A DNA stretch of 64,000 bases from Nostoc sp. PCC 7107. Lineage in GTDB: Bacteria > Cyanobacteriota > Cyanobacteriia > Cyanobacteriales > Nostocaceae. Every line of letters begins with the position of its first letter. Position 1 is the first letter of the stretch. A program made the translations under genes and the position numbers. Shown here in pieces: positions 1,092-61,288 of the stretch. The stretch lies in assembly GCF_000316625.1 (NCBI RefSeq), contig NC_019676.1, forward strand, positions 2,808,501 to 2,872,500, read 5' to 3'. Under the pieces are notes generated by a model that did no database searches, was not told the DNA's origin, and was given only the letters and a program-made list of their open reading frames with translations.

Positions 1092-1139
1092 GCTGAAGCT
1101 TGATAAAATGATGGAATTGCTTTTTACGTAAAACCTGTT

Positions 1140-1976
1140 TTAATTCACTGTAATAAAAAACAGCGAACCACCAATATTTTGATGAATCCCTGCATCTAGT
1201 TGCTCTGCGGTATAAATACTAGCTTCTTGTAAAGTGCTAAAATCAATTTGGTCTTGAGCCTGCAAACGATACAAAGCTTGATCTAATTCATCACGCGATA
1301 GTGGCGGTTGTAATTCTTGACGTAGATGAAAAATTGGTAAATAATTCTCTGTTCCTAATTCTTTATCTAATTTCTCAATAATTTGTAAAATTTCTTCGTC
1401 ACTTATATTAATGCTGTTATCAGATGGTGGCTCAGGCGGCAATATAGGTTTAACTCGCAAAGTCTTGCGTAAAAACCGCAGATAATTACCCAGCAATTCT
1501 AAGCTGATGGCTGGTTGAACGCCTTTGTTAGGGTTGTAGTCATCTCGTAAATAGTCAATTCCTCTTTCAGTTAGCCAAACTTCGGCTTTGGCTTTTTTGA
1601 GTTGTAATTCGACTTCAATTAATCCCCGATCGCTTAGGGTTGTCAATATTGCATCTCGTTCAGCAGCTTTTGGTGCAGTAATTTTGCTGGGTGCGATTTT
1701 ACCAGAAGCTTTACTTATCTTCTCCAGTACCTTGAGTTCTTTGTCTGTAATAGGTAACTCGCCTGCCTCAAGTTTCAGCACCGTTTGACCAGCAGGTATA
1801 ATTTTGACTTTGGCAATCTCACGGGTATAGTCTACCAGTTCACGATCGCCCAACTCTCGACAAATTTTATCCTTACCTTTAAAACTATTAAAAGCAGTCA
1901 ATCCTGCTCGATAATTGGCAAATCCCAATAACTTTAAAAGAAACTTTAGTTCATTTGTATCCATGCTAGTCATCAA
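1140..1976 (-). CDS. Predicted winged-helix protein, partner of the ATPase
   Basis: A 278-residue soluble protein that I cannot assign to a named family. The centre (about residues 70-150) has helix-turn-helix character: short charged helices, a DRGLIEVELQ turn and a WLTERGIDYL strand as in winged-helix domains. A proline-rich linker (about 175-185) leads to a second all-helical domain ending in a hydrophobic GGSLFFITV strand. It is the first gene of the apparent two-gene operon whose second gene is the ATPase at 1..1091. ATG codons at residues 1, 2 and 5 are all possible starts. DNA or protein binding as a partner of the ATPase is likely but unproven. Confidence 0.65.
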   Translation of the reverse strand: MMTSMDTNELKFLLKLLGFANYRAGLTAFNSFKGKDKICRELGDRELVDYTREIAKVKIIPAGQTVLKLEAGELPITDKELKVLEKISKASGKIAPSKITAPKAAERDAILTTLSDRGLIEVELQLKKAKAEVWLTERGIDYLRDDYNPNKGVQPAISLELLGNYLRFLRKTLRVKPILPPEPPSDNSINISDEEILQIIEKLDKELGTENYLPIFHLRQELQPPLSRDELDQALYRLQAQDQIDFSTLQEASIYTAEQLDAGIHQNIGGSLFFITVN

Positions 1977-2158
1977 GCCTGTAGCTAATTCAGCTATACT
2001 CTAGCGCGAAGGGCAACAATTTACACACCTTCTTATCCTAGCTGTAATTATTGCTGATGACTATAACAGAACTAGTGATCGCTGATACGCGACTAAGATA
2101 ACAAATATTAACTTTTGTTTAGAAAATTCAATAGCTATAAAAATAATAAGTGCGATCG

Positions 2159-2752
2159 CTATTTTTTAATTCCCTGCATAAATTGTTTTCTAGCATCAAT
2201 AATCGAAGGCATTAAAACACAACTAGCTAATAATTGTATATCTAAATCTGGGAAGAATTCACTTTGTTGAATTTGCTCATAATTATCATTTTTTAGCCGA
2301 TATAGGTAAAATTGATTATTCTCCCAGAACCAAACTTCAGTAATATTAAACCGTTTATATTTTTCTAGTTTGTCAATACTGCCACTGGTGATATTAACTT
2401 CAATTGCTAAATCTGGATTTTCTTTTTTTTCTCCTATGTAATAAGATTCATCAGGTTCAAAGGAAGCATTTTTTTCTTTAGCGCGACGCGTGGCGCTACC
2501 TACTGAGATAAAATTTATACCTTTTTCAAAAAAGTATAGTGCTAATAATATCCCAATCACGCTTTTAATCATTTCGTGTTGTTCACCCAGCGTCATAAAT
2601 TCAATGCACCCATCAAGATAAGTTATCCGTAAACCTGCTGCATCTGCGGTTAAGGTTTCTATTTTCTCCAATTCTTCCCATGTGTAATAACCAGGTAAGA
2701 GAAATCGCTGTTCTAGAGTTGTGATATTTTTATTTAAGATTTGGAGAGTCAT
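2159..2752 (-). CDS. Uma2 family (DUF820) restriction-endonuclease-fold protein
   Basis: A 197-residue member of the Uma2/DUF820 family, which is hugely expanded in filamentous cyanobacteria and has a PD-(D/E)XK nuclease fold. Family features visible are the N-terminal YTWEELEKIE segment, the central ITYLDGCIEFM strand, the NPDLAIEVN motif (near residues 112-120) carrying the acidic core, and the FNITEVWFWE segment. Function is unknown for nearly all members. It is a single gene with an AT-rich upstream region. Two further Uma2 genes lie at 6158..6889 and 23575..24372. This copy lacks the coiled-coil tail found in those two. Confidence 0.85.
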   Translation of the reverse strand: MTLQILNKNITTLEQRFLLPGYYTWEELEKIETLTADAAGLRITYLDGCIEFMTLGEQHEMIKSVIGILLALYFFEKGINFISVGSATRRAKEKNASFEPDESYYIGEKKENPDLAIEVNITSGSIDKLEKYKRFNITEVWFWENNQFYLYRLKNDNYEQIQQSEFFPDLDIQLLASCVLMPSIIDARKQFMQGIKK

Positions 2753-3210
2753 AGTTAAATTATGTTTATGACTTTATTTTGATTATAATCGGGAATTATT
2801 TTGCAACTAATAAGTTTGATGAGATAAGTTTTGAAAAGCGATCGCCTGTATGAAAGTAGCAATTATAGTTTTGCGACTTGCAAACTTAATTTCTGACTCG
2901 TGAATTAACTTTTGCAAATTGAAGTATTTATGCAGATAAATTCGTTGTGCTACAAATATGCAAGCTTGCACCTCCACCTAACCTACGCATAACTCTAACT
3001 AGGGTTTGCTGGTGATGCTTGGGTAAGAGAAGGGGATACACAATCAAACAAATGGATTTATAATTCTTAATTTATTCTCTATTAACTGATTATAACAAGG
3101 GTTGAACTTAGGCGATCGCACCATATTGACATCATAATAATTGCAACAATACGCACTGGGGTAACAAATGCGAGAAACTGAAAACAGATCCATTAACGAA
3201 GGAGAACGCA
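2753..3210. other. Intergenic region of 458 bases
   Basis: This AT-rich gap separates a leftward Uma2 gene from the rightward Rieske gene. I see no convincing ORF. A TTGACA box at 3126-3131 could be a -35 element for the Rieske gene, but no good -10 box lies at the right distance. HIP1-core GCGATCGC or GATCGC sites are scattered through it. Confidence 0.4.
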
Positions 3211-3567
3211 ATGGGCTGGACTAAAGTTCTGGCGGCTGATGCACTAGCCCCTGGTGCTAGAGAAGTTGTGAATGTTGGCAAGCGAAAAATTCTCTTGTTA
3301 AATCACGAAAATCAACTATATGCGGTAGATAATGCCTGCCCTCATTTAAAATTACCTCTAAAGAATGGCAAAATCGAGGGTGGGGCAATTATTTGTCCCA
3401 TTCACCGCAGTGCCTTTAATCTCAGTAACGGGCAAGTAAATAATTGGTGTCCTTGGCCACCTGGAGTAGGTAAAGTATTGTCATTAATTTCGCAACAAAA
3501 AACACTGCCAGTTTTTCCCATACGCGTGGAAGAAGGCAGTATTTGGATTGATGTAAACGATAACTAA
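3211..3567 (+). CDS. Rieske [2Fe-2S] domain protein
   Basis: A 118-residue stand-alone Rieske protein. The cluster-binding boxes are Cys43-x-His45 (CPH) and Cys62-x-x-His65 (CPIH), spaced as in Rieske ferredoxins. The first box has the CxH form and the second CxxH, both complete. No signal peptide or membrane anchor is seen, so it is a soluble electron carrier or the ferredoxin component of an oxygenase rather than the cytochrome b6f Rieske protein. The start is supported by a GGAG ribosome site just upstream. No oxygenase gene is adjacent, so its partner is unknown. Confidence 0.88.
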   Translation: MGWTKVLAADALAPGAREVVNVGKRKILLLNHENQLYAVDNACPHLKLPLKNGKIEGGAIICPIHRSAFNLSNGQVNNWCPWPPGVGKVLSLISQQKTLPVFPIRVEEGSIWIDVNDN

Positions 3568-3620
3568 ATTGACATTTCAATTGCATTAATTGGGCGGGCA
3601 TCTTGCCTACCCTACAACAT

Positions 3621-4202
3621 CTAACGTTGTTGGATTTTCCAAAAATAGCTAGAAACCCAATTTGTCATAATATGGGCAACAATCGGCACTAACAAATTTC
3701 CACTCAATAGGGCGCTATATCCCAAAATTAACCCAATCACCGTTGCCCATATTACGTAAGGCCATTGTTGGGAACCACTGAGGTGTAACACTCCAAAGCA
3801 GAGGCTAGATACAATCACTGCTACATGGTCTAAGCCCAAAGCTGGCAGCATTACACCTCGAAATAATAATTCTTCGCTTAATCCCGGTAGTAAACCCAGC
3901 CAAATTAAATCCGGCCAGGCTAAAGGTCTCAATACTAGTTCTAGGTAATAGTCTGCACTTTGACGATAGGCAGGCCACAACCGATAAGCTAAACCACTCA
4001 AGCTGGTGATTATCAGTCCTACGCCCAGCCCCCAAAAAAAATCTATTTCGTGCCATTCCCACTTGAATAGGAAAACATTACCAAAGCGCAGCCAAACTTT
4101 AGCAACTGTCCACAACAGGATGGCAGTTACCGCCATTGCGACTAAAACTTGAATACGCGTCAGGTAAGGAATTTCTGGATCTTGTTTTTGTTGTTCTACC
4201 AC
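3621..4202 (-). CDS. CPBP family intramembrane metalloprotease
   Basis: A 193-residue membrane protein with about five hydrophobic segments. The three CPBP (Abi/CAAX-protease-like) motifs are present: EELLFRG at residues 110-116, FGVLH ending at His140, and AHIMTN with His177 and Asn181. These are the glutamates and histidines that bind the metal within the membrane in this family. Substrates are unknown; relatives process prenylated proteins or bacteriocin-related peptides. The start is a GTG at 4202. Heptameric GAAGTAT repeats sit directly upstream, so no ribosome site can be recognised. Confidence 0.85.
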   Translation of the reverse strand: MVEQQKQDPEIPYLTRIQVLVAMAVTAILLWTVAKVWLRFGNVFLFKWEWHEIDFFWGLGVGLIITSLSGLAYRLWPAYRQSADYYLELVLRPLAWPDLIWLGLLPGLSEELLFRGVMLPALGLDHVAVIVSSLCFGVLHLSGSQQWPYVIWATVIGLILGYSALLSGNLLVPIVAHIMTNWVSSYFWKIQQR

Positions 4203-4210
4203 AGGAAAGT

Positions 4211-4242
4211 TATGAAGTATGAAGTATGAAGTGTGAAGTATG
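4211..4242. repeat. Short tandem repeat, heptamer GAAGTAT
   Basis: Four to five imperfect copies of a GAAGTAT/TATGAAG heptamer lie between two leftward genes. Such short tandemly repeated repetitive heptamers are typical of intergenic DNA in heterocystous cyanobacteria. A second array of the same unit lies near 49672-49700. Confidence 0.7.
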
Positions 4243-4302
4243 TAGACACCCTTTGGATGGCTTTCCGTTAGCCTTCAGGGGTTCCCGAAGGGTAGGGTAA
4301 TT

Positions 4303-5352
4303 TTATCCTTTAGCCTCTTGACTATTAACCAAAGCATCTGGATTGATGCCTGCTTTGAGGGCTACCAATACACCTACTGCTTCTAAATACGAGTTTACCT
4401 GTATGGATTTGATTCCCAAGGGTTGGGCAGGAACTTGTATTTGAGTTTGATTATCTTTGACGGTAATTATTGGGCATCTGCTTTGACTTAAACTTAGTAA
4501 AGCGCTGCTACCACAAGCGTTTGCCGGGACAATCGCTGCATCTATTTGATCAGCCCAAATATCTGCTGGATGAGATGTAAATAATTGTTTCTCGACGATA
4601 AATTGGGGGGCGCGACTTAAGCCTACAAGTACGCTTGGTAAAAAAGTATAGCCTAATTCCTCGGCGGCAGAACGCGGAGATAAATCGGGATAAGGCGAGG
4701 TGCTGGCGAGGGCTGGTGAATGGGCGCAAGGAATTTGAAAGTTTCTCACTAGTAAATGGCTAATTACTGCTTCTGCACCTGCCAGAGGATCTACGCCTTT
4801 ACCCTGGTGATAGTTCTGCACAGCATCTTCATCCATATCATCGGGGAAACGGGCGACAACTGCGATCGCTTCTGCTCCCATTTTATTGATTAATATTTCC
4901 GCCGCCCGAAGTAAACTATCAGGGTTGCCAATGGTTCCCCAACTTGCCCCTGATGCTGATGTGCGTAGTTCTACATTTAAAGGAGCATCAGTAATTACAT
5001 AATCTGTAATAGTTAATCCCAGAGTTGCTCTGGCTGCGTCAGCAGCTTGTAAGTGCCTTAACTGCAAGTCTGGTTCAATACTTTGGTCTAAAAGCAAACC
5101 TATTTTATTATTGCGGACTGGTTGTAATCCCCAACATCCAGAGGCGAATTTGTCAAGCCCAAAGCCTTCCACATAGAAAGCATTGGGGATGTTCCAATAT
5201 AAACTTGCGCCATTGAGGACGTTGGGGTGAGTGATCAGGCGATCGCAAACTTGTGCTAATGTTCGAGCAACAGGTATGGCATCGCCAGCATAACCCCCAA
5301 TCGCAGCCCCAACGCCAGTAGGTACAATCAAAATAGCGGTGTATGGACGCAT
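4303..5352 (-). CDS. DUF3326 domain-containing protein
   Basis: A 349-residue soluble protein that fits the cyanobacterial and plant DUF3326 family over its whole length. Its N-terminus carries the family-typical IVPTGVGAAIGGYAGDA segment, followed by a Gly/Ala-rich body of alternating strands and helices. The biochemical role is unknown to me. The ATG start at 5352 places the conserved motif within the first 25 residues, as expected. The gene is followed by the CPBP gene on the same strand with about 100 bases between, containing repeats, so operon membership is uncertain. Confidence 0.8.
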   Translation of the reverse strand: MRPYTAILIVPTGVGAAIGGYAGDAIPVARTLAQVCDRLITHPNVLNGASLYWNIPNAFYVEGFGLDKFASGCWGLQPVRNNKIGLLLDQSIEPDLQLRHLQAADAARATLGLTITDYVITDAPLNVELRTSASGASWGTIGNPDSLLRAAEILINKMGAEAIAVVARFPDDMDEDAVQNYHQGKGVDPLAGAEAVISHLLVRNFQIPCAHSPALASTSPYPDLSPRSAAEELGYTFLPSVLVGLSRAPQFIVEKQLFTSHPADIWADQIDAAIVPANACGSSALLSLSQSRCPIITVKDNQTQIQVPAQPLGIKSIQVNSYLEAVGVLVALKAGINPDALVNSQEAKG

Positions 5353-37527: not shown

Positions 37528-40500
37528 TTACGACCTTGGCCGTAACAACTGCACGAAGGTATCGCTCACAGTATGATCCTTCGTATCAGCCGCGTATTGA
37601 ATTAACTTTTCCCGCAGTTCCTTCGCCGCATCTAAAGGTAATAGCGTCGCCAGCAAAAAGTATACACCACGAAAACGCGGGTCGCCTATATGGTCGATGA
37701 GATGTTTTTCCGCGTCGTCACCCTCACCGAGAAAGTTCTGCACTAAGAAAAATTCCATAATTTTATCGTGGCGGAAGTACCATTCCTTTTTCGCTGCGCC
37801 TTCTTCGTTTTGCCATTGACGGCTGACGACCATTTTATACTTCTCATCTTCCAAAGACTGTAAAACTTGATGAAATTCTGCCGCAGGTAGCGCCTGTTCA
37901 TCATCCAGCCGCATTTGATAAACCGCATCGGAGAATTTTTTTAATGGAAATTCTTGCTTCCACTCTTGCAAATACTCCGCCGCCATCAATTTATATTGCT
38001 GTTGTTGCAGGTGAAATAAGTTAGGAGACTCACCTTGAGATAACATCAAAGCCACTAGTGATAAATCCATCGGGTTAGAGAGAATTCTTTGATTAGCGGC
38101 TAACTCCTCCGGTGGTTGTTGCTGGCTGAGAGTTTGAGTTAAATAACTTGTGCAGGCTTGTTTGTAATTATCACCTTGAATGTTGGCATCTTTGGGTAGT
38201 TGTGGCTGACGGGAAAGTAAAAATTGCTGAATCTGTGCTAACTCCAGGGGTTGTAATTTATATATCTTGGCGGTGGAAGGTGGTATCCACTCTAGGGGTT
38301 GGGTAGCCATGATGATGTTACCCCGGAAATAGCTTTCGACAAACTGGCAGATTTTCGCCCTGGTGTCGGCTGTGACTTCGTTCAGCCCGTCGATACAGAT
38401 ATCTAACGCGCCACTGTAAATCAAATTCTTGAGAAAATCAGCGTCTTGTGCTTGTCCGTGCAGCTTGGCTTGAATCGCTTCAATTACCCCATTGTCGCAC
38501 TTGCGGGCGGGGAGATAAACGACAATGCGGGGTGAGGTTTTGACTAAATACCGCAGAAACATCGACTTACCCAACCCGGAATCACCTTCCAGAACGATTT
38601 GCCCGGTGATGCTGGGTAGAACTTGGTTAATCGCTTGGGGTTTCTCTGCGCCGGGAACTTTTACAAGAGATTCTGGGAAGTAAGCTTCCGGGTGAAAATT
38701 ATCTAACCCAGCATCGGCTAACAGCGAAGGCTTGAACGGTTCAAATAATTTGCGGCGGAAAAACGGAATCCAGGTGAGGAGAAAGCCGACGTAACCCACG
38801 CCTAAGATGCGGCGCACCCAAGGATTCCAGAAAAAGATGGCTTGCACTTGGGGAAATTTGGGATAAGCGAAGATGAGCGCCAGCCAAACCAGAGCATGAG
38901 AGATGATAGTAAGTCTGGCGTTGATAAACCACTGCCAACCTTTGAGGCTAACTATGACTGATTGCAGTGAATCCGCTTCGTTGAATCCGGCTTTTTTGAG
39001 GTTGTTGTAATGAGTTTCTAAGATGACAATATCTTGTGGTTGCCAAGAGATTTTTCTGGCGACGACAGCGATTTGTTTGGCTAAGTCTTGTTGTAATCGT
39101 GTGAAATCTTTGCTCGGTTCCCAGGCTTGGGCGAAAATTTGGAGAGTTTTCACACCTTGCTCATGGGTTAAGGAAGTGGGAATTGTTTTAGTTTCAGGAA
39201 AACCCAGCCATGTCAGCAGTGTTTTGACTTCCTCAGTGCCACCACCAAGGAAATAGGTTAAAAATCGCCACTGTGCAATTTGTAATTGACCATCGTAATA
39301 AACATTATCTAAAATTACAACAATATTATTCAGCTTGAGTTGTTCTATTTTTCCCAACGCCACTGCTGCGCCGTAACCAACACCATTGTCAACAGATTTA
39401 TCCTTGAGGATGTCGAGGATGTCTTTGACATAAGGTTGAGCAGCATCGCCCAAATTTCCCAACGCCTCTGCGGCACTACCACGAACATTATTGTCAAGAG
39501 ATTTATCCTTGAAGAAGTCGAGGATGTCTTTGACGTAGGGTTTGGCAGCATCGCCCAGATTTCCCAACGCCTTTGCTGCACTACCACGAACATAACTGTT
39601 AACAGATTTATCCTTGAGGATGTCAGCGATGTCTTTGACATAAGGTTGAGCAGCATCGCCCAAATTTCCCAACGCCTCTGCTGCATAGTAACGAACATCA
39701 TTGTCAACAGATTTATCCTTGAGGATGTCGAGGATGTCTTTGACATAAGGTTGAGCAGCATCGCCCAAATTTCCTAACGCCACTGCTGCACTACCACGAA
39801 CATAAATGTTAACAGATTTATCCTTGAGGATGTCAGCGATGTCTTTGACATAAGGTTGAGCAACATCGCCCAGATTTCCCAACGCCTCTGCGGCACTACG
39901 ACGAACATTATTGTCAAGAGATTTATCCTTGAAGAAGTCGAGGATGTCTTTGACGTAGGGTTTGGCAGCATCCCCCAGATTTCCCAACGCCTTTGCTGCA
40001 TTACCGCGAACATAACTGTTAACAGATTTATCCTTGAGGATGTCAACGATGTCTTTGACATAAGGTTGAGCAGCATCGCCCAAATTTCCCAACGCCTCTG
40101 CTGCATAGTAACGAACATTATTGTCAACAGATTTATCCTTGAGGATATCAGCGATGTCTTTGACATAAGGTTGAACAGCATCGCCCAAATTTCCCAACGC
40201 CTCTGCTGCATAGTAACGAACATAAATGTTAACAGATTTATCCTTGAAGAAGTTGAGGATGTCTTTGACATAAGGTTTGGCAGCATCCCCTAGATTTCCC
40301 AACGCCTTTGCTGCACTACCACGAACAGAACTGTTAACAGATTTATCCTTGAGGATATCAGCGATGTCTTTGACATAAGGTTGAGCAGCATCGCCCAGAG
40401 TTCCCAATGCCTCTGCTGCACCGGCACGAACAGAATTGTCAACAGATTTATCCTTGAGGATTTTGGCAGTTTTGAGTGCAATATCCTCTGGTTTGTCAAA

Positions 40501-40731
40501 CACCAATCTCAAATTTTGCAAATCATATTCATTGAGCTTGTCAAAAGCGAGTTTCTTCACATTGTCATATCCATCATCCAGGGCGGCGACTATACCGTTA
40601 ATCTGCCACGCTTCTGGTTTGGGCTTGGGCTTTTCTTTGGCGCTCACCCAAGGTAAACACAGCAAAAGTGTCAGCAGCAGGGTAAGCAGAAAGAGGAAAA
40701 GGGGCGATTTTCTTTTAATATACGTATACAT
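37528..40731 (-). CDS. Membrane-anchored HEAT-repeat and NACHT-type NTPase protein
   Basis: A 1067-residue protein from ATG 40731; a GTG at 40785 would add 18 residues encoded by repeat-like DNA. Numbering here is from that GTG. An N-terminal signal or anchor (28-49, ending WVSA) precedes ten near-identical 35-residue HEAT-like repeats (126-475, ALGNLGDAAQPYVKDI). A divergent helical part leads to two hydrophobic segments (about 624-642 and 660-676). A STAND/NACHT NTPase follows: Walker A GDSGLGKS (734-741), Walker B ALDICIDGLNEV (793-804) and a sensor-like IIMATQPLEW. The C-terminus is helical (YFRHDKIMEFFLVQNFL). It looks like an NLR-style sensor; the trigger and effector are unknown. Confidence 0.82.
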   Translation of the reverse strand: MYTYIKRKSPLFLFLLTLLLTLLLCLPWVSAKEKPKPKPEAWQINGIVAALDDGYDNVKKLAFDKLNEYDLQNLRLVFDKPEDIALKTAKILKDKSVDNSVRAGAAEALGTLGDAAQPYVKDIADILKDKSVNSSVRGSAAKALGNLGDAAKPYVKDILNFFKDKSVNIYVRYYAAEALGNLGDAVQPYVKDIADILKDKSVDNNVRYYAAEALGNLGDAAQPYVKDIVDILKDKSVNSYVRGNAAKALGNLGDAAKPYVKDILDFFKDKSLDNNVRRSAAEALGNLGDVAQPYVKDIADILKDKSVNIYVRGSAAVALGNLGDAAQPYVKDILDILKDKSVDNDVRYYAAEALGNLGDAAQPYVKDIADILKDKSVNSYVRGSAAKALGNLGDAAKPYVKDILDFFKDKSLDNNVRGSAAEALGNLGDAAQPYVKDILDILKDKSVDNGVGYGAAVALGKIEQLKLNNIVVILDNVYYDGQLQIAQWRFLTYFLGGGTEEVKTLLTWLGFPETKTIPTSLTHEQGVKTLQIFAQAWEPSKDFTRLQQDLAKQIAVVARKISWQPQDIVILETHYNNLKKAGFNEADSLQSVIVSLKGWQWFINARLTIISHALVWLALIFAYPKFPQVQAIFFWNPWVRRILGVGYVGFLLTWIPFFRRKLFEPFKPSLLADAGLDNFHPEAYFPESLVKVPGAEKPQAINQVLPSITGQIVLEGDSGLGKSMFLRYLVKTSPRIVVYLPARKCDNGVIEAIQAKLHGQAQDADFLKNLIYSGALDICIDGLNEVTADTRAKICQFVESYFRGNIIMATQPLEWIPPSTAKIYKLQPLELAQIQQFLLSRQPQLPKDANIQGDNYKQACTSYLTQTLSQQQPPEELAANQRILSNPMDLSLVALMLSQGESPNLFHLQQQQYKLMAAEYLQEWKQEFPLKKFSDAVYQMRLDDEQALPAAEFHQVLQSLEDEKYKMVVSRQWQNEEGAAKKEWYFRHDKIMEFFLVQNFLGEGDDAEKHLIDHIGDPRFRGVYFLLATLLPLDAAKELREKLIQYAADTKDHTVSDTFVQLLRPRS
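39361..40410. repeat. Ten tandem 105-bp units encoding HEAT repeats
   Basis: Ten consecutive 105-base units, all in the reading frame of the HEAT/NACHT gene. They fall into two or three alternating subtypes: DIADILKDKSV, DILDFFKDKSL and DILDILKDKSV. Units of the same subtype are more alike than neighbours, pointing to duplication of multi-unit blocks. Long antisense ORFs over this stretch are by-products. Confidence 0.88.
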
Positions 40732-40970: not shown

Positions 40971-41078
40971 AGAAAGGCGATCGCTCAATTCAACAAAGAA
41001 GAAAGCGATCGCCTTTCTCAAAACCCCCAAAAAGGATAAAAGCGATCGCTCCATTCCCGCAAAGAAAATAGCGATCGC
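40971..41078. repeat. Two HIP1-based inverted repeats in a gene leader
   Basis: Four HIP1 octamers (40977, 41005, 41042 and 41071) lie within about 100 bases. The first two form a perfect 15-bp inverted repeat, AGAAAGGCGATCGCT (40971-40985) with AGCGATCGCCTTTCT (41004-41018). The second pair forms a similar imperfect hairpin. They end 32 bases before the ATG of the gene at 41111. Confidence 0.8.
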
Positions 41079-41110
41079 CTTTATAACCCCCCGAAAGGAG
41101 CATAAACACC

Positions 41111-44853: not shown

Positions 44854-45205
44854 TGTTCTCTGTTAGACAGATATCTCCCTCCGTATTATCTCGTGGTTCT
44901 TTTCATAAATCAAATATGATTCCTATAGCTTTCCTTCAGATGTAACTTTAGCCACAATATTTGTATTCATAGTTTAATTTTTCCACCTTGATAAATTTTA
45001 GCCTTGATTAAGGTTGCATTGCCTGCCGCTAAAAATAACAACATCATTCACCAGAATGAAAATTCAGCAGCCGCTTATATCAACAAAGATTAAACTCTAT
45101 TAGAAGAATTCAACAATCGCCCACTTCAGTATCATCTGGGTGGTATAAAAAATTTATCAATATACTTTAAACCAATTGCTCACAGCAAGCATAGCAAAAC
45201 AATTT

Positions 45206-47332
45206 ATGAAATTTAACTATCTATTAACACCAGCACTGATTGGAGTTTCAGTTGCTTTTGTGCAACCACAAATAGCTGTCGCGCTTTCTTCAACGGAAGT
45301 CAGCAAAATCGCTAAAGCTATGACGGTGTTGATTGAAAATCAAAATGGTTCTGGTTCTGGGGTAATTATTCGCCGCAACGGCGAGACTTACACTGTATTA
45401 ACGGCTAAACACGTTATCGACAACCCAGATAAATATGCAGTTGTCACTCCCGACGATCGCCGTTATGAGTTAAAGTACAATACGGTGAAAAAACTGCCAG
45501 GGGTAGATCTAGCGATGGGGCAGTTTACCAGTAATAAAACTTATCCTGTGGCTAAGTTGGGTAACTCCGATGATATCAGCGAAGGTGCAACATCTTATGT
45601 TGCGGGGTTCCCTCAACCTAGTGCAGCAATTTCTATCTCAATTTACAATTTCATTGAAGGGCGAATCACTGCCAATGCTTCCAAAGCTCTGCGTGATGGT
45701 TATGCTTTAGTTTATAATAACGACACTCTACCGGGAATGAGTGGCGGCCCAGTACTGAATGATAAAGGCGAATTAGTCGGTATTCACGGTAGAGGTGACA
45801 CCGCCGAGAACTATCAAATTTCTGATAAAAATCCCGACGTAATTATCAAAACTGGCTTTAATTTGGGAATTCCCATCAATACTTTTTTGCGAACCTTACC
45901 AAAAGCCGAGGTAGGTGCTGTCAGTCAACCAACACCCACCGCACCCAAAGCGGATGACTTTTATATTCAGGGTGGGGATAAGTATAAGAAAGGTGATTAC
46001 AAAGGGGCTATTGAAGCTTACAACCAGGCAATTAGCATCAATCCCAAATATTCTTATGCTTACAATGATAGGGGAAATGCCCGTTATTATTTAGGTGATA
46101 AACAAGGTGCATTAAAAGATTACAACCAAGCCATAAAAATTAATCCTGAATATGCCTTTGCTTACTATAATCGAGGCAATATTCTCTATGATTTTGACGA
46201 TAAGCGGGGGGCGTTAGCTGATTATAACCAAGCTTTGAAACTGAATCCTAATTATTCTTCTGCTTATAATAATCGTGGTAACTCACACTATGCTTTAGGC
46301 GATAAGCAAAGGGCGCTGGCTGATTATAACTTAGCTATTAAAGTTGATCCGGGTAATTCTGAAGCTTATTACAATCGGGGAAATACTCGTGCTATTTTAG
46401 GAGATAAGCAAGGGGCAATAACTGATTACAATCAAGCGATTAAGATTAACCCTAATTATGTTTTTGCCTACAACAACCGAGGTAATACCCGCTATGATTT
46501 GGGTGATTATCAAGGAGCGATCGCAGATTACACCCAAGCTGTTAAAATCAATCCTAATCATTCATCGGCTTACAACGGGAGAGGGAATTCTCGTTATTAC
46601 TTGGGCGATAAGCAAGGCGCACTGAACGATTACACTTTGGCTCTAAAAGCTAATCCTAACAATGCTGAAGCTTATTATAACCGAGGCAATGCTCGCTCTG
46701 ATTTGAAAGATTCTCCGGCGGCGATCGCTGATTACAACGAAGCAATTAAACTTAATCCTAACTATTCTGCTGCTTACAATGGTAGAGGTAATGCCTTTTA
46801 TTATTTAGGTGAAAAGCAAAAGGCACTTGCAGATTATAGCCAAGCTATCAAAAGCGATGCTAATAATTCCGAAGCTTACTATAACCGAGGCAATGTCTAC
46901 TTTGATTTAGGTAATAAAAAAGGAGCGATCTCCGACTATACCCAAGCGATTAAAATTAATCCCAATTATGCCTATGCTTACAATAATCGCGGTAATACTA
47001 AATATGATTTAAATGATTTACAAGGAGCCTTAGCTGATTATAATCAAGCATTGAAGCTTCTACCTAATTATGCCTTTGCTTACTACAATCGAGCTAATGT
47101 TTACAAAAATCTGGGAGACTTAGAAGGAGCGATCGCCGATTATAATCGAGCAATTATCAATAACTCCAACTATGCCCAAGCTTATCAAAATCGTGGTCTA
47201 GCTCGTTATGATTTAGGCGAACAGCAAGCAGGTATTAGTGATTTAGAAATAGCAGCTAATTTGTATAAAGAACAAGGAAATGCAGCAGCTTATCAACAAA
47301 CCGTACAAGCAATTATAAAACGTCAACGTTAG
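45206..47332 (+). CDS. Secreted trypsin-like serine protease with 13 TPRs
   Basis: A 708-residue exported protein from ATG 45206; a TTG at 45176 would add ten residues. A signal peptide (about 1-27) is followed by a trypsin-like domain with His69 (LTAKHVID), Asp101 (LPGVDLAMG) and Ser179 (GMSGGPVL). From about 255 on come 13 tandem 34-residue TPRs with a strict AYYNRGN signature. The combination suggests a periplasmic protease with a protein-docking solenoid. This architecture is frequent in Nostocales. Neighbour genes do not indicate a substrate. Confidence 0.88.
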   Translation: MKFNYLLTPALIGVSVAFVQPQIAVALSSTEVSKIAKAMTVLIENQNGSGSGVIIRRNGETYTVLTAKHVIDNPDKYAVVTPDDRRYELKYNTVKKLPGVDLAMGQFTSNKTYPVAKLGNSDDISEGATSYVAGFPQPSAAISISIYNFIEGRITANASKALRDGYALVYNNDTLPGMSGGPVLNDKGELVGIHGRGDTAENYQISDKNPDVIIKTGFNLGIPINTFLRTLPKAEVGAVSQPTPTAPKADDFYIQGGDKYKKGDYKGAIEAYNQAISINPKYSYAYNDRGNARYYLGDKQGALKDYNQAIKINPEYAFAYYNRGNILYDFDDKRGALADYNQALKLNPNYSSAYNNRGNSHYALGDKQRALADYNLAIKVDPGNSEAYYNRGNTRAILGDKQGAITDYNQAIKINPNYVFAYNNRGNTRYDLGDYQGAIADYTQAVKINPNHSSAYNGRGNSRYYLGDKQGALNDYTLALKANPNNAEAYYNRGNARSDLKDSPAAIADYNEAIKLNPNYSAAYNGRGNAFYYLGEKQKALADYSQAIKSDANNSEAYYNRGNVYFDLGNKKGAISDYTQAIKINPNYAYAYNNRGNTKYDLNDLQGALADYNQALKLLPNYAFAYYNRANVYKNLGDLEGAIADYNRAIINNSNYAQAYQNRGLARYDLGEQQAGISDLEIAANLYKEQGNAAAYQQTVQAIIKRQR

Positions 47333-47537: not shown

Positions 47538-47581
47538 CAATAATAAGGCAGTGATTTTCTCATGTTTTGAGGTATAACGTG

Positions 47582-48892
47582 ATGAAATTGAATATTAAGT
47601 TATTTACAGTAATCAACAACACCAGCCATTTTCCTAAAGGTGTTGTTTTTACCCTAGCTTTAAGCAGCTTGCTATCTTTGGGACAGGGATTTATCGGTAG
47701 TTATTCAGCTGAAGCTGCACCGCGTGGCGAACCTATACAAATTTCGCAACGCTTACCTGACCACTTTCGGAATCGCTCTAATGGACTACCTCGAAGAATT
47801 GCCAACATCATAATTAATGATGCGGCTCGGCGTGGTAGAGTAACAAGCAATCAAGTGAGAATTACTCAAGTCCGTTCTCAAACTTTTGCTAATCCTTGTA
47901 TTTTTAATTTTGGTGAAGCTTGTACAAGAGAATATAACCCGATCAAAGGCTGGGAAGTAATTGTTACAGTTCAAAATCAGTATTTTACTTACCACATTGA
48001 TGAATCCGGTTCTCGGATTGTTTTAGATCCAAAAACTACAGATTCAGGTTCAGACAACAGTTATCAATTACCAAGAGCGATCGCCAATAACATCTTACGA
48101 GATGCTTCCCGTCGTTCTGGTGTCAGCACTAGTAATTTACGAATTACCCAAGCGACACGCAAAACTTTTGGTAATGCTTGCGAGTTTAACTTTGGCGAAG
48201 TTTGTACACAACAATATGATCCTATTCAAGGTTGGGAAGTAATTGTCCAGGTTGAAAGACAGTCTTGGACTTATCACAGTAATGAATCTGGTTCCCAAAT
48301 TGTTTTAGATCCGCAAATTAGCAATTCAGGTTCCGAAAACAATGGACAACTACCACGAGCGATCGCCAATAATATTTTAAGAGATGCTTCCCGTCGTGCT
48401 GGTGTCAACACTAGTAATTTAAGAATTACTCAAGCGACACGCAAAACTTTTAGTAATCCTTGTGAGTTTAACTTTGGCGAAGTTTGCACCAGAGAATACA
48501 ACCCCGTCCAAGGTTGGGAAGTAATTGTCCAAGTTGAAAGACAGTCTTGGACTTATCACAGTAATGAATCTGGTTCCCAAATTGTTTTAGATCCGCAAAT
48601 TAGCGATTCAGGTTCAGAAAACAGTGGACAACTACCAAGAGCGATCGCCAACAATATTTTAAGAGATGCGGCGCGTCGTTCAGGAGAAGATGAGAGTGAT
48701 TTAAGAATTACTCAAGCTGAACGCAAAACCTTTGGTAATCCTTGTGAGTTTAACTTTGGTGAAGTTTGTACTAGGGAATATAACCCCATCCGAGGCTGGG
48801 AAGTGATTGTGCGAGTGCGTCGTCAGACTTGGACTTATCACGTTGATGAATCTGGCTCGCGTATCGTTTTAGACCCGGATATTAGACGCTAG
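47582..48892 (+). CDS. Secreted protein with four 94-residue repeats
   Basis: A 436-residue exported protein from ATG 47582 (TGAGG 8-12 bases upstream). Signal peptide about residues 1-45 (VVFTLALSSLLSLGQGF, cleavage near AEA). The mature part is four tandem repeats of about 94 residues, each with LPRAIANNILRDA, LRITQ, CEFNFGEVC, GWEVIVQVERQSWTYH and ESGSQIVLDP. The two Cys in each unit probably form a disulfide. Linkers are Ser/Gly/Asn-rich. I do not know the family; the repeat may be a small alpha/beta inhibitor- or PepSY-like fold. Followed by a GC-rich hairpin. Confidence 0.78.
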   Translation: MKLNIKLFTVINNTSHFPKGVVFTLALSSLLSLGQGFIGSYSAEAAPRGEPIQISQRLPDHFRNRSNGLPRRIANIIINDAARRGRVTSNQVRITQVRSQTFANPCIFNFGEACTREYNPIKGWEVIVTVQNQYFTYHIDESGSRIVLDPKTTDSGSDNSYQLPRAIANNILRDASRRSGVSTSNLRITQATRKTFGNACEFNFGEVCTQQYDPIQGWEVIVQVERQSWTYHSNESGSQIVLDPQISNSGSENNGQLPRAIANNILRDASRRAGVNTSNLRITQATRKTFSNPCEFNFGEVCTREYNPVQGWEVIVQVERQSWTYHSNESGSQIVLDPQISDSGSENSGQLPRAIANNILRDAARRSGEDESDLRITQAERKTFGNPCEFNFGEVCTREYNPIRGWEVIVRVRRQTWTYHVDESGSRIVLDPDIRR

Positions 48893-49642: not shown

Positions 49643-49806
49643 CGGCGGTAACAGATGAATAACCTTTGAAGGATAAAGTATGAAGTATGAAGGTTGAAAC
49701 TTACCCCAAGCATCAATCAAGGGGTTGGCAAAAATTTGGCTCGTTGCTCAAAAAATTGGTGACGCAACAAGTCTGTTTTTCATCCTTTATTCTTTATTCT
49801 TTATCC

Positions 49807-50592
49807 TTGAATCGGTTATATCGGGTATTATCCACCGCCATTTTGGGGATTTTTTGCTGTTTATTTTTAGTCACAGGATTACCTGCATCTGCCGCAGAAA
49901 TGCCAGAAATTCAGCGGCGGGGCTATTTTACAATTGCTGTTAAAGATAATCTGCCTCCTTTGGGATTTAGGGATGGTAATGGTAATATCCAAGGCTTAGA
50001 AATTGATTTGGCGCAACGTTTAGCCGCAGATTTACTAGGAAAAGCCGAGGCTGTAAAATTGCAACCTGTAGCGAATAGCGATCGCTTATCTGTAGTGTTA
50101 AAGCAGAAGGTGGATTTAACTATTGCCAGAGTCACAGCTACTGAGTCACGCTCTCGGTTAGTAAGTTTTAGTGTGCCTTATTACTTGGATGGCACTTACT
50201 TGATTACAAAGGATAACACCGTCAAAGAACTGCGGGATTTAGCCAAGCGTAAAATAGCCGTACTCAATCACTCAAATACAATTGCCCAAGTGCGTTATTA
50301 TGTTCCCAATGCGGAATTAGTGGGAGTAAATTCTTACCAGGAAGGACGAGAGCAGCTAGAAAGTAACACAGCAAACGCTTTTGCAGCCGACGCGAGTGTC
50401 CTCAGCGGTTGGATAAAACAATATCCCCAATATCGGCTATTACCCACCAAGCTATCGACTGAACCTTTATCTGTAGTTATGCCCAAGGGCTTGCAATACG
50501 ATGAACTGAGACGTAAAGTAAATGAAGCGATCGCTCGTTACACAGTCGAAGGTTGGCTGAAGCAACGCGCTCAATATTGGGGATTACCCTAA
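49807..50592 (+). CDS. Periplasmic solute-binding protein (PBP2, amino-acid type)
   Basis: A bacterial type-2 periplasmic binding protein. From TTG 49807 it has 261 residues with a textbook signal peptide (MNRLYRVLSTAILGIFCCLF to PASAA). An in-frame ATG at 49687 would add 40 residues partly encoded by a CTTTATT repeat array, so the TTG is preferred. The mature part begins EIQRRGYFTIAVKDNLPPLGFRD and has the ligand-binding LEIDLAQRLAADL and VDLTIARVTATESR segments. It matches amino-acid ABC transporter binding proteins; no permease or ATPase gene is adjacent. Confidence 0.82.
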   Translation: MNRLYRVLSTAILGIFCCLFLVTGLPASAAEMPEIQRRGYFTIAVKDNLPPLGFRDGNGNIQGLEIDLAQRLAADLLGKAEAVKLQPVANSDRLSVVLKQKVDLTIARVTATESRSRLVSFSVPYYLDGTYLITKDNTVKELRDLAKRKIAVLNHSNTIAQVRYYVPNAELVGVNSYQEGREQLESNTANAFAADASVLSGWIKQYPQYRLLPTKLSTEPLSVVMPKGLQYDELRRKVNEAIARYTVEGWLKQRAQYWGLP

Positions 50593-58186: not shown

Positions 58187-61100
58187 ATGTATCTACACTA
58201 TTTACAACCCAAACACCTTGAAGAATTAGTCAAGGGCAGTAGTATAGATTTACACCTAGCGCAAATGAATTTTAAATCTTTTCAAGGTGCGATCGCCTAC
58301 GAATACCTGTTAATTTCCGAACTACTACCACGCACGAACACAGGTATGGTAAAAAGCGGCTGGTTGCAGCGTTACAGTCATATCACTGCTGGCGGCTGGT
58401 GGTGTGGGGGACTAGATCCACTAAATAATTGGCAAGCAATGGAATGGGGATGCTTTAAGCCAAATCAACCGCGCATCAAGGATAATGGCAAACAAATAAA
58501 ATATGAACATCCTCCCAGCACACCAACCAGAGTATTTTGTTTACGGGTGACGCTGGAAGTGTGGCAAGAAGCTGCACAGCGTTACAATCTCAACTTACCT
58601 GTAAATATCAGTGTTGATGCTAACGGTGAAGCGGTGGGTTTTTGGGAATGGGTAATGGAACAGAACATCCCCCTGATTATCTGCGAAGGTGCAAAAAAGG
58701 CGGCTGCACTGTTAACGCAAGGATACGCAGCGATCGCAATTCCCGGAATTACCAGTGGTTATCGAGTTGTCAAAGATGGATTTGGTAAAGTTACCAGTCG
58801 TCAACTCATTCCTGATTTAGCTTTATTTGCGACTGCAAAACGCACTATATATATATGTTTTGATTTTGAAACTCAACCTAAGACTATAGCAGCAGTGAAT
58901 AATGCGATCGCGCAACTTGGCTGCTTATTCCAAGAAAAAAATTGCTTAGTCAAAGTTATAGAACTTCCCGGCCCCGAAAAAGGTGTTGATGAATTAATCG
59001 TGGCTAAAAATGGTCACGCCTTCGATAAAGTTTATCGCCAAAGTGTTGATTTAGAAATTTACCTAGCACACACCAAACCACATACAGAATTAACGATTCC
59101 GGCTGCACTCACAATCAACCGTCCTTATTTAGAAGAGATACCTGTTCCCAACTCAGGATTAGTAGGAGTGAAATCAGCCAAAGGTACAGGTAAAACCACA
59201 GCTTTACAAAATATTGTCAAACAAGCCAAAATCAAAAATCAGCCTGTATTGTTAATTACCCATAGAATCCAGCTTGGTAAATTTTTATGCGATAAAGTTG
59301 GTATTCAATGGGGCTTAAATACTAATAATTTCCATTCTTACTTTGAAAATCAAACTACTGAATCGCTAGGTTTATGTATTGATTCTATTTGGAAAATAAA
59401 CTCAGATAATTGGCATGGTGGCATTATTATCTTAGATGAAGTAGAGCAATTGTTATGGCATTTATTAAATAGTGATACTTGTAAAAACAAACGCGTCAAA
59501 ATTTTAAAAAATTTCCAAAAATTAATCAGCACAGTATTGAAAACTGGCGGTTTAGTAATTGCCCAAGATGCTGATTTATCAGATGTATCATTAGAATATT
59601 TACAAGGGTTATCAGGAATTAAAATAACGCCGTGGGTACTTATAAATCAATGGCAACCAGAACGCGGTTGGGACATAACTTTCTATGATTCACCTAACCC
59701 AACACCTTTAATTCATCAATTAGAATTAGATTTACTTGCAGGACGTAAATGCTATGTCACGACCGATAGTCGATCTGGTAGATATAGCTGCGAAACCATT
59801 GAAAATTATCTCAAAGAACGTTTAGAAAAATTACGCTATCAATTTCCTAAAAGTTTAGTCATTAGTAGCAGAACTACTAATACACCTGACCATCCAGCAG
59901 CGGATTTCGTCGCAACTATTAACCAGAAAATAGAAGATTACGACACAATTTTTGTCACGCCTAGTCTAGGAACTGGTATTAGTATTGATGTGCAACATTT
60001 TGATAGAGTTTATGGTATTTTTCAAGGCGTAATTCCTGACTCAGAAGCACGACAAGCATTAGCCAGAGTCAGAGATAATGTACCTCGAATTGTGTGGTGT
60101 GCTAAAAGAGGAATTGGTTTAATTGGTAGTGGAAGTACAAACTATCGTTTATTGTCTGATTGGTATCAAGCCAATCAAAAAGAAAATTTAGCATTACTTA
60201 GTCCATTACATAAAATAGATGTCGATTTACCTTTAGTATATGACCCGATTCATTTACGTACTTGGGCTAAATTATCTGCGAGAGTTAATGCTTCTATTCG
60301 TCTTTATCGTCAATCTATGCAAGATGGATTAACGTGTGACGGACATCAAATTTGGCTGCGGAGTAATGCAGTTCACAATAATATTATTCGAGATTTACGT
60401 TTAGCATTTTTAGCCACTGACGCTGATGATTTAGCCACGCGCAAACGGTTAATTTTAGAAATTGTGAAAGTTCAAAGAGATTGGACAGATAAGCGTCAAA
60501 AAGCTAAAGATATTAAACGTCAAATGCAGGAAATTAAGCAAAAAAATCAATTAGGGAGTGCCAAAATTATTGCAGAAACGCAAGATATTGATTATGTAGA
60601 ATATCAACAACTAACATCTAAAAATTCTCTTACAGATGTAGAACGTAATCAAATACATAAATATACACTCAAACAAAAGTATGGGGTAGAAGTTACACCT
60701 TTACTAAAAATAAAAGATGATCAAGGCTATTATGCCCAATTATTAATTCACTATTATTTAACCCACGAAAGTGATTATTTTCATGTTAGAGATCAGCATG
60801 AATGGCAACAGCAATTGCAGTGGGGTGAAGGGAAAGTTTTTTTACCTGATATCAAAACTTATACTTGCAAAGTTGAAGCGATGAAAGCTCTAGGAATGCT
60901 AGAGTTTCTCGAACCATCCAGAAATTTTACTGAAAATGCTCCTGATTTACTCTGGTTGCAAGATGTTGTTTATCAGCATAGTAAACATATCAAACGGGTT
61001 TTAGGAATTGACTTGGTTAGGGAAGAAGAAGCGACTTCACCAATTAAAATACTTGGTAAATTACTCAAGTTATTGGGATTAAAGTTGAAATCAGTTAAAG

Positions 61101-61288
61101 AAGGTTATCAATTAGACCATGAAACTTTATATGATGGCAGAGAAAAAATATTTGCAGTTTGGTATCAACGAGATGAGTTGATGTTAGCAAATCTGAAGGG
61201 TGTGCAACTAGAAATAAAGGATTTCTCCAATTGGAAGTTTGAGCCTGTAAAGCAGCAATCTGTATTAGCAAGCTTATCAACAAGATGA
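58187..61288 (+). CDS. CyRepA1-family plasmid replication protein (DUF3854)
   Basis: A 1033-residue protein fitting the cyanobacterial CyRepA1 group. The N-terminal part has the DUF3854 toprim-like region (LIICEGAKKAAALLTQGY, IAIPGITSGYR, TIYICFDFE, about residues 160-230). A helicase-like region follows with Walker A SAKGTGKTT (about 328-336), ITHRIQLGKFL and Walker B IIILDEVEQLL (about 410-420), and VTPSLGTGISIDV plus QALARVRD as later helicase motifs. Such proteins initiate replication of cyanobacterial plasmids. Here it lies among chromosomal genes, so an integrated plasmid or a chromosomal homologue is possible. Confidence 0.78.
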   Translation: MYLHYLQPKHLEELVKGSSIDLHLAQMNFKSFQGAIAYEYLLISELLPRTNTGMVKSGWLQRYSHITAGGWWCGGLDPLNNWQAMEWGCFKPNQPRIKDNGKQIKYEHPPSTPTRVFCLRVTLEVWQEAAQRYNLNLPVNISVDANGEAVGFWEWVMEQNIPLIICEGAKKAAALLTQGYAAIAIPGITSGYRVVKDGFGKVTSRQLIPDLALFATAKRTIYICFDFETQPKTIAAVNNAIAQLGCLFQEKNCLVKVIELPGPEKGVDELIVAKNGHAFDKVYRQSVDLEIYLAHTKPHTELTIPAALTINRPYLEEIPVPNSGLVGVKSAKGTGKTTALQNIVKQAKIKNQPVLLITHRIQLGKFLCDKVGIQWGLNTNNFHSYFENQTTESLGLCIDSIWKINSDNWHGGIIILDEVEQLLWHLLNSDTCKNKRVKILKNFQKLISTVLKTGGLVIAQDADLSDVSLEYLQGLSGIKITPWVLINQWQPERGWDITFYDSPNPTPLIHQLELDLLAGRKCYVTTDSRSGRYSCETIENYLKERLEKLRYQFPKSLVISSRTTNTPDHPAADFVATINQKIEDYDTIFVTPSLGTGISIDVQHFDRVYGIFQGVIPDSEARQALARVRDNVPRIVWCAKRGIGLIGSGSTNYRLLSDWYQANQKENLALLSPLHKIDVDLPLVYDPIHLRTWAKLSARVNASIRLYRQSMQDGLTCDGHQIWLRSNAVHNNIIRDLRLAFLATDADDLATRKRLILEIVKVQRDWTDKRQKAKDIKRQMQEIKQKNQLGSAKIIAETQDIDYVEYQQLTSKNSLTDVERNQIHKYTLKQKYGVEVTPLLKIKDDQGYYAQLLIHYYLTHESDYFHVRDQHEWQQQLQWGEGKVFLPDIKTYTCKVEAMKALGMLEFLEPSRNFTENAPDLLWLQDVVYQHSKHIKRVLGIDLVREEEATSPIKILGKLLKLLGLKLKSVKEGYQLDHETLYDGREKIFAVWYQRDELMLANLKGVQLEIKDFSNWKFEPVKQQSVLASLSTR

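Follow-up and report, generated by a model that had tools for sequence, protein, structure and literature searches.

Known NLR and NACHT proteins are intracellular and carry their effectors at the N-terminus and their sensors at the C-terminus, as described in passages of two reports (PMC10907252, PMC4986451). The repeats of fungal NLRs combine high internal conservation with shuffling and with diversifying selection on the binding face (passages of PMC4986451), and for one target of a diversity-generating retroelement (DGR) both the NACHT and the CLec domain were predicted to be periplasmic (PMC10907252, in part). Further membrane-associated conflict systems include PBP domains following transmembrane helices (excerpts of PMC7159879). 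Here we report on a protein encoded on a stretch of 64,000 nucleotides from Nostoc sp. PCC 7107 (contig NC_019676.1, positions 2,808,501 to 2,872,500; in the following "the window"), which joins an N-terminal array of HEAT repeats to a membrane segment and a NACHT ATPase. Judged by its sequence, we consider it rather likely that this protein is an inner-membrane receptor of the NLR type with reversed domain order, serving the recognition of nonself or rivals at the cell surface. Its architecture, its NACHT kinship, a hypervariable five-position code within the repeats, their concerted evolution and the swapping of sensors were computed directly. The tripartite plan of NLRs is not reproduced, as the repeats are not C-terminal to the nucleotide-binding oligomerization domain and no N-terminal effector domain was matched by Pfam, NCBIfam, or PADLOC. 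In the part of the open-licence literature that was covered, without preprints but including passages of PMC7159879, PMC10907252, PMC8195603, PMC13236601, and PMC4986451, we found no membrane NACHT with an exported HEAT sensor at its N-terminus.

Five hypervariable positions in each HEAT unit

Tandem Repeats Finder (TRF) places a 105-bp tandem array at 39350-40461 (10.6 copies, score 1559). The first-pass annotation, made by a model from the letters of the window, had reported ten 35-residue HEAT-like repeats at this place, which we recovered as ten exact units plus one partial unit; the Pfam HEAT models match the protein at up to 2e-43. Variation among the units is concentrated in the unit columns 5, 6, 9, 10, and 13, i.e., the x positions of the motif xxVRxxAAx. 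The proportions of amino-acid-changing (pN) and silent (pS) differences were computed within proteins, the first sets omitting the duplicates L001, L035, L043, L046, L058, L062, and L064 as well as every locus with under five units of exact period. For 10 proteins with at least five 35-residue units, the five columns gave a pN of 0.405 and a pS of 0.163, hence a ratio of 2.48 (bootstrap 1.83-4.11), compared with 0.40 for all other columns. Six proteins with a 31-residue unit behaved alike (2.82, 1.74-5.12, vs 0.57 elsewhere), and amino-acid change at the five columns exceeded the overall silent change in 16 out of 16 proteins. A fresh test drew on 36 further loci, of which 18 were scored after setting aside two duplicates and 16 loci without five exact-period units. 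The thirteen fresh 35-residue arrays reached a pN/pS of 2.25 (1.86-2.85) at the five columns vs 0.48 elsewhere.

Comparison of the window array with the PDB returned 16 sequences at E<=1e-10. Thirteen of them are named alphaRep, while the other three are bGFP-A, BGFP-C (in the same naming style), and the top match 9sah, which is labelled a synthetic fusion and in which the alignment reveals the same repeat as in the window array. Taking the register to be D17-x-x-V20-R21-x-x-A-A-x26, an assumption based on the PDB alignment and on the alphaRep motif, the alphaRep positions 18, 19, 22, 23, and 26 equal the unit columns 5, 6, 9, 10, and 13, and position 30 equals unit column 17, which is barely variable in the family arrays. 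According to parts of PMC3754942, bGFP-A is counted among the alphaRep binders, the alphaRep libraries randomise positions 18, 19, 22, 23, 26, and partly 30, the A3/bA3-2 complex is held by contact via the concave faces bearing the randomised residues, and the diversity of these libraries was drawn from natural HEAT-like repeat variation (section 5). As the designers used natural variation, variability at these positions belongs to the wider repeat family. Particular to the arrays described here is the amino-acid excess within single proteins whose backbone stays near-identical. By its sequence, the HEAT array reads as a natural alphaRep whose face is DIVERSIFYING, and what is new, as far as the alignment tells, is the coincidence of its five variable columns per repeat with the five positions randomised in alphaRep.

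The units are homogenised within each array. Nine of the 10 window units are closest to a fellow unit of the window array and not to any of the 13 units of L031 (Fortiea sp. LEGE XX443), even though this syntenic locus has a module (the membrane-NACHT part of the protein) 96% identical to that of the window; for the tenth unit, the values are 0.91 vs 0.90. The number of exact 35-residue spacings also differs among near relatives (window 10 vs L031 13; L032 6 vs L034 1). Modules of 85-91% identity carry different array types, namely 35-residue units in L066 and L068 and 31-residue units in L065, L077, and L079. Units are thus homogenised and vary in number, and two array types have been exchanged on similar modules. 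The hypervariable code, the sensor swaps and the spread to other phyla had all escaped the first-pass annotation.

Within the same genome, a HEAT control of 21 loci (L114-L134) held four proteins with at least four motif matches and a unit identity of 0.15-0.32 vs 0.61 in the window protein; this control is a weak one, its motif scan having missed diverged arrays. Matches such as those to DnaJ-X, CpcE, NrdF, RT_UG20, and HEAT_CxxC_PDDEXK (Pfam, NCBIfam, PADLOC) were dismissed as repeat cross-matches, their best stretches lying in or beside the array. A housekeeping role resembling that of phycobilisome lyases was rejected likewise, with CpcE reaching 59.7 of 330 bits and NblB 45.8 of 300, both within the array. 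Diversification by a DGR is doubtful considering that the codons of the variable columns (TCC, GCC, GAG, CAA, and others) do not, as we read them, fit an adenine-only origin, a reverse-transcriptase search not having been part of the analysis.

The ATPase and its placement at the membrane

NACHT/STAND ATPases share a P-loop GxxGxGK[ST], a Walker B with DGxxE, and a winged-helix motif FxH...E[FY]. The window protein shows all three (GDSGLGKS, ICIDGLNEV, FRHDKIMEFF), aligned with their NACHT counterparts, and the P-loop G, G, K and the Walker B D are invariant across 19 diverse modules (alignment A3). A profile of 38 modules (alignment A2; L018, L019, L020, L068, and L082 were omitted from the 43 prepared) was compared with 177,635 distinct PDB sequences, among which the NACHT of NLRC4 ranks first (E=0.0017) in an alignment running from the P-loop past Walker B; the next matches, unrelated dehydrogenases, follow at E 0.021. 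With hhalign, the profile of the ATPase part aligned to 13 of the 15 NACHT-model matches of the same genome over 328 columns with a probability of 99.2, taking in Walker B, the SNPM region, and the winged-helix motif. Some of these 13 presumably resemble NB-ARC, going by their GMGGIGKT motif. As controls, 19 nSTAND1-like sequences gave a probability of 0.4 and 18 ATPase2 sequences 0.1, while a value of 18.8 resulted when the own-genome NACHTs were aligned with the nSTAND1-like sequences. On the strength of these family profiles, we assign the ATPase of the window protein to NACHT. Beyond the NACHT motifs, no further domain match was seen in its C-terminal part. A KAP NTPase identity was rejected since the membrane segment (607-666) comes ahead of the P-loop (716) and does not lie inside the NTPase domain; KAP was also absent among the best 25 of 26 Pfam families matching the protein.

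Four indirect lines of evidence suggest that the HEAT sensor is probably extracytoplasmic: the signal peptides, a periplasmic-binding-type sensor in L078, the distribution of Cys, and the Cys pairs of rhizobial relatives. By a loose home-made rule (hydrophobic core, then small-x-small), a signal-peptide-like start was found in 44 of 46 homologue N-termini, the exceptions being a fragment and a run of N. The export signal or anchor of the first-pass annotation is borne out by a signal-peptide-like stretch in the window protein, where the ATG start yields a clean signal peptide ending in LPWVSA, with K as the following residue (a second in-frame start candidate, GTG, lies 54 bases upstream). In L078 (Candidatus Parabeggiatoa), Peripla_BP_6 (8e-37) and ANF_receptor (5.8e-24) replace the HEAT repeats on the same module, and domains of the Peripla_BP_6 type bind their ligand outside the cytoplasm. 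Counting Cys after residue 30 in 37 parsed sensors (nine of the 46 rows, which include some duplicates, were not parsed by the motif), we found none in 22, two in 10, four in one, and one in four, two of the latter having it within what we read as the signal peptide; the remainder of each chain after the sensor has 3-13. The window protein carries Cys only at 25, 745, 779, 795, and 860, leaving none between residues 25 and 745. A Cys pair just past the signal peptide occurs in several members, and three rhizobial plasmid relatives (34-37% identity) have two Cys pairs with conserved spacing in 3/3. Their solenoid is of another kind, without a Pfam match in the two scanned.

Of the two hydrophobic segments noted before, the first holds up as a plausible transmembrane helix; the second is less strong, with flanking R/K at both ends. 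On the Kyte-Doolittle scale, their means over 17 columns each are 1.78 (columns 12-28) and 1.64 (columns 47-63). Columns 30-68 lack acidic residues save for column 54 (5% of rows), column 69, past the second segment, is mostly Glu, and two translated rhizobial relatives have D and H inside the second segment. We infer that the protein probably crosses the membrane once and has a second segment that is interfacial or re-entrant, which would place the ATPase in the cytoplasm. This would be the likely answer, drawn from the charges, to the odd number of segments that the first-pass annotation had raised as a topology problem, and its plan of a HEAT sensor outside and a NACHT inside gains partial support from signal peptide, Cys, L078, and charges.

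The membrane segment possibly acts as an output element, because invariant positions are dense there (12/55 at positions 17-71 vs 43/401 after, in 19 diverse modules including rhizobial ones, A3) and because L138:1267-3312 (-), a relative in the order to which Ca. Parabeggiatoa belongs, retains the solenoid and the membrane segment, while its short remainder lacks the P-loop. In L079 and L066, the module contains in-frame insertions resembling low-complexity or intergenic-repeat sequence, some separating the membrane segment from the P-loop and others preceding the SNPM motif.

Distribution, features and gene neighbourhood

The module matches 99 of the 192 genomes of the family, about five of them weakly only (E 1e-9 to 1e-13) and thus maybe through ordinary NACHTs, and 39 of the 388 genomes of the class with a less sensitive protein query. 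The window genome itself (6.33 Mb, single contig) holds one copy at E <=0.01. A set of genome contigs gave 56 loci, among them a Planctomycetota metagenome-assembled genome (MAG), a Nitrospina MAG, Ca. Parabeggiatoa, and a Fibrobacter MAG fragment. Counts outside the cyanobacteria, each including the query's own genome, were 2/246 for the phylum of the Planctomycetota MAG, 1/77 for the phylum of the Nitrospina MAG, and 1/369 and 3/42 for the class and the order of Ca. Parabeggiatoa, where the order's matches include one that looks like a soluble NACHT and another without the P-loop. Four of 72,556 plasmid records had a module match, and none of 50,697 phage records did. Among viral contigs, relatives turned up in three out of 50 pattern stretches, and only L176 matches the near-whole module: its near full-length coding stretch, at 655-4494 (+) of this high-GC IMG/VR contig, has both a HEAT array and a hydrophobic stretch ahead of the module. 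Truncated or interrupted copies are common among family members. Patchy presence, plasmid copies, and decay are consistent with a conflict gene.

The window gene is complete, reading from an ATG at 40731 to a stop that ends at 37528; its parts are compiled below.

Features of the receptor gene, in positions of the window
Feature	Position	Strand	Basis
Coding sequence of 1067 residues, from signal peptide through HEAT array and membrane segment to NACHT ATPase	37528..40731	-	open reading frame, module matches
Signal peptide, residues 1-31, with KRK, a long hydrophobic core, and a VSA cleavage motif	40639..40731	-	sequence
Ten 35-residue HEAT units, residues 95-444; hypervariable unit columns 5, 6, 9, 10, 13	39400..40449	-	TRF, Pfam, unit parsing
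Conserved region from array to membrane, residues 463-606; no own Pfam match seen	38914..39345	-	alignment A1, Pfam
Predicted transmembrane helix, residues 607-624; invariant H612, W616	38860..38913	-	alignments, hydrophobicity
FFWNPWVRR-ILGVGYVGFLLTWIPFF-RRKLFEPF segment, residues 625-666, read as interfacial or re-entrant	38734..38859	-	alignments, charge
NACHT ATPase and winged-helix part, about residues 708-1003	37723..38610	-	hhalign, PDB profile search
P-loop GDSGLGKS	38563..38586	-	sequence, alignment A2
Walker B ICIDGLNEV	38374..38400	-	sequence, alignments
Winged-helix motif FRHDKIMEFF, aligning to FxH...E-Y-F in NACHTs	37747..37776	-	alignments

Both gene neighbours are shared with L031; we take them to be a DUF4870-type gene and prfC, as read from the sequences. 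Immediately upstream of the receptor gene, at 40973-41106, lies a 66-bp tandem repeat with GCGATCGC-like words. The three PADLOC matches of the window protein have their best stretches at residues 43-407, on the array side, and its ATPase is without match to a known defence model in PADLOC. Eight of 10 window proteins scanned had no PADLOC match, the others being one protease-model match and one weak DRT match. The former belongs to a trypsin-like peptidase with a TPR array at 45176-47332 (+), 4.4 kb away (Trypsin_2 8.7e-23; PADLOC RT-Protease_XI 3.7e-15, LmuA 4.3e-14). Relatives of it lie near homologues in L038, L044, L060, and L084/L113 (one plasmid) in varying orientation, and in L110 a Trypsin_2 protein lies upstream of the receptor; in the window, other genes separate it from the receptor. 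Considering distance, intervening genes, and varying orientation, the association of this secreted protein is too loose to claim it as a partner. Further genes of the window are a 441-residue open reading frame with a 282-bp tandem repeat (47567-48892 (+), 3.6 copies, no Pfam match at 1e-4), an SBP_bac_3 extracellular solute-binding protein (49687-50592 (+), 2.7e-23), and a 1033-residue protein with DUF3854 (58187-61288 (+), 2.7e-49) and the weak DRT match (7.3e-6). Elsewhere in the genome, two open frames of 1256 and 1262 residues (G000:C1:4939109-4941721 (+) and 3834696-3837002 (-)) encode a NACHT followed by HEAT repeats and offer a built-in comparison with the reversed order.

Downstream genes of relatives bear on a possible output. 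In a sister clade, all 10 placed members (support 1.0) share a further C-terminal ATPase, the tree placing 10 of the 19 loci with a second ATPase motif; L079, the sole member scanned for it, has an nSTAND1 match there (1.5e-6). In 18 of these 19 loci, a same-strand ATPase gene follows whose open reading frame overlaps the end of that of the receptor, the 19th (L071) being a cut contig. Since this clade has an overlapping downstream ATPase gene, relay to a second STAND reads as one natural output within it. In the rhizobial relatives, a downstream gene overlaps the receptor gene by four bases in 3/3 (L110:9262-9768, L111:9007-9507, L112:9007-9507, all (+)). The products in L110 and L111 (166 and 168 residues) look secreted, and none of these small genes had a Pfam match over the cut-off. 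Upstream of the Mesorhizobium receptor, L110:1233-3347 and 3360-4364 (+) encode a Trypsin_2 plus Exo_endo_phos protein and an unknown protein of 334 residues.

Proposed mechanism, rival explanations and known systems

For the mechanism, we infer topology, ligand binding, and oligomerisation, and guess at the output. The signal peptide would export an alpha-solenoid of near-identical HEAT units, whose concave face, with five variable residues per unit, may bind a protein as its ligand on the outer side of the cytoplasmic membrane, much as alphaRep binders do. Bending or clustering of the solenoid could then be relayed via one transmembrane helix and the basic, highly conserved FWNP interfacial segment to the cytoplasmic NACHT, which would exchange nucleotide and oligomerise. 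The response might come from the oligomer, from its own membrane segment, or from a recruited STAND partner. Ligand binding and relay are modelled on alphaRep and on the architecture, the nucleotide step on NACHT knowledge. Repeat shuffling together with diversifying selection would keep altering the specificity, and an ever-changing specificity would point to recognition of nonself or rivals such as a phage, a predator, or a non-kin cell. In a more far-reaching version, put forward only tentatively, the exported array is a natural alphaRep library on a NACHT switch, renewing its binding faces through recombination and selection at five positions per repeat, and the FWNP segment is the killing or signalling element; multicellular bacteria would in that case own an evolving surface repertoire linked straight to the switch.

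Several observations weigh against the receptor reading. The five columns were chosen after inspection of a variability table of both unit types, so that the first 31-residue set was not blind; the five fresh 31-residue arrays gave a pN/pS of 1.29 (0.84-3.53) vs 0.51, which alone is not significant, and in the fresh arrays the excess over silent change was found in 17 of 18, L151 being the exception. Column 30 of the 35-residue unit is variable beyond the five, and repeat recombination can distort pN/pS. The Pfam NACHT model stays sub-threshold against the single window protein (E=0.14, 12.4 of 26.7 bits), and its best value across six scanned proteins (E 7.6e-5, L023, 23.0 bits) is under the cut-off as well, which makes the NACHT call dependent on family profiles; of the NACHT profile search that had been proposed at first pass, the Pfam part gave a match below the cut-off, while the profile-profile and profile-PDB comparisons favour NACHT. 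The second segment is itself hydrophobic, with the topology being read from hydrophobicity and charge. As the first-pass annotation had stated, no effector domain is visible: Pfam, NCBIfam, and PADLOC matched no N-terminal effector or adaptor domain in the window protein, no adjoining partner gene was recognised in the window, and the window is no clear defence island. Many module hosts are, by their names, presumably filamentous cyanobacteria, a habit which is no proof of nonself recognition.

The variable positions could also represent a loosely constrained HEAT surface on which repeats diverge by neutral recombination, an explanation we regard as quite unlikely. It would accord with the natural origin of alphaRep diversity (PMC3754942, section 5, in part), with the fact that repeats recombine, and with the 1.29 of the fourth set, but relaxed constraint predicts a ratio of about 1 and not the 2.2-2.8 of three of the four sets, and in 33 of 34 arrays over both rounds amino-acid change at the five columns exceeded the overall silent change. 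That both hydrophobic segments cross, leaving the whole protein outside and the ATPase a dead relic, is hardly credible: although both 17-column stretches have high Kyte-Doolittle means, the invariant P-loop and Walker B residues, the R/K flanks and near-absence of acidic residues in columns 30-68, the D and H in the second segment of the rhizobial relatives, and the Cys-rich remainder after Cys-poor sensors all speak against it.

Two further alternatives accept the sensor but change its ligand. A membrane NACHT monitoring the state of the envelope (septal junction, peptidoglycan, S-layer, or sheath) and controlling a stress response, with repeat variation following a self structure and not an enemy, is unlikely in our view. 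The predicted periplasmic placement, the presence in about half of the family genomes, and the stable inheritance of the window copy at its place, deduced from the neighbours shared with L031, would suit it, yet no match was found in 93/192 family and 349/388 class genomes (the latter with the less sensitive query), copies occur on plasmids, and the five columns show a positive diversifying pattern. Decidedly improbable is a marker of self or kin, by which arrays of neighbouring cells recognise each other or ligands and mismatch leads to death or avoidance, as in fungal incompatibility. An array predicted to lie beneath the outer membrane makes cell-cell contact hard to envisage, in spite of the many hosts with names of filamentous cyanobacteria. 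The concerted evolution, change in repeat number, and diversifying positions would nevertheless fit a kin marker, being those of fungal NLRs (passages of PMC4986451).

If the preferred reading of a surface receptor is true, a NACHT with its sensor beyond the inner membrane merges the logic of NLRs and of transmembrane receptors in a single chain, known NLR-type switches sensing intracellularly. Filamentous cyanobacteria would then also have a candidate repertoire for nonself recognition, a gap in what is known of multicellular bacteria. The match of natural hypervariable positions to alphaRep library positions names the residues that probably choose the ligand, therefore making ligand hunting practical, with the array usable as a soluble bait.

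Among known systems, KAP NTPases likewise combine a P-loop NTPase with membrane segments, but theirs are inserted within the NTPase domain, as the title of a 2004 report by Aravind indicates, whereas here they precede it. The DGR-diversified NACHT/STAND sensors share multicellular hosts and a diversified sensor on a NACHT, yet vary a C-type lectin fold by a retroelement in place of tandem HEAT units (PMC10907252, in part). With the alphaRep artificial binders, the array has the HEAT-like repeat kind and five variable positions per unit in common; in contrast to this soluble laboratory library, also varied at position 30, it is natural and joined to a membrane segment and an ATPase. The fungal NLRs HET-D/E/R (NWD family) are similar in their near-identical repeats, concerted evolution, change in repeat number, and few diversifying positions on the binding face, but their repeats are C-terminal and mostly of the WD, ANK, or TPR type, while those described here are HEAT, N-terminal, predicted to be exported, and bacterial. 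Animal NLRs (NLRC4) and bacterial NACHT/Avs proteins have in common with it a superhelical repeat sensor and a NACHT bearing the P-loop, the Walker B DGxNE, and the FxH of the winged helix; unlike in these, the window sensor is N-terminal (95-444, with the NACHT from about 708) and predicted to lie outside the membrane. The receptor can thus be viewed as an upside-down cousin of animal NLRs, which may detect foreign cells or viruses at the surface.

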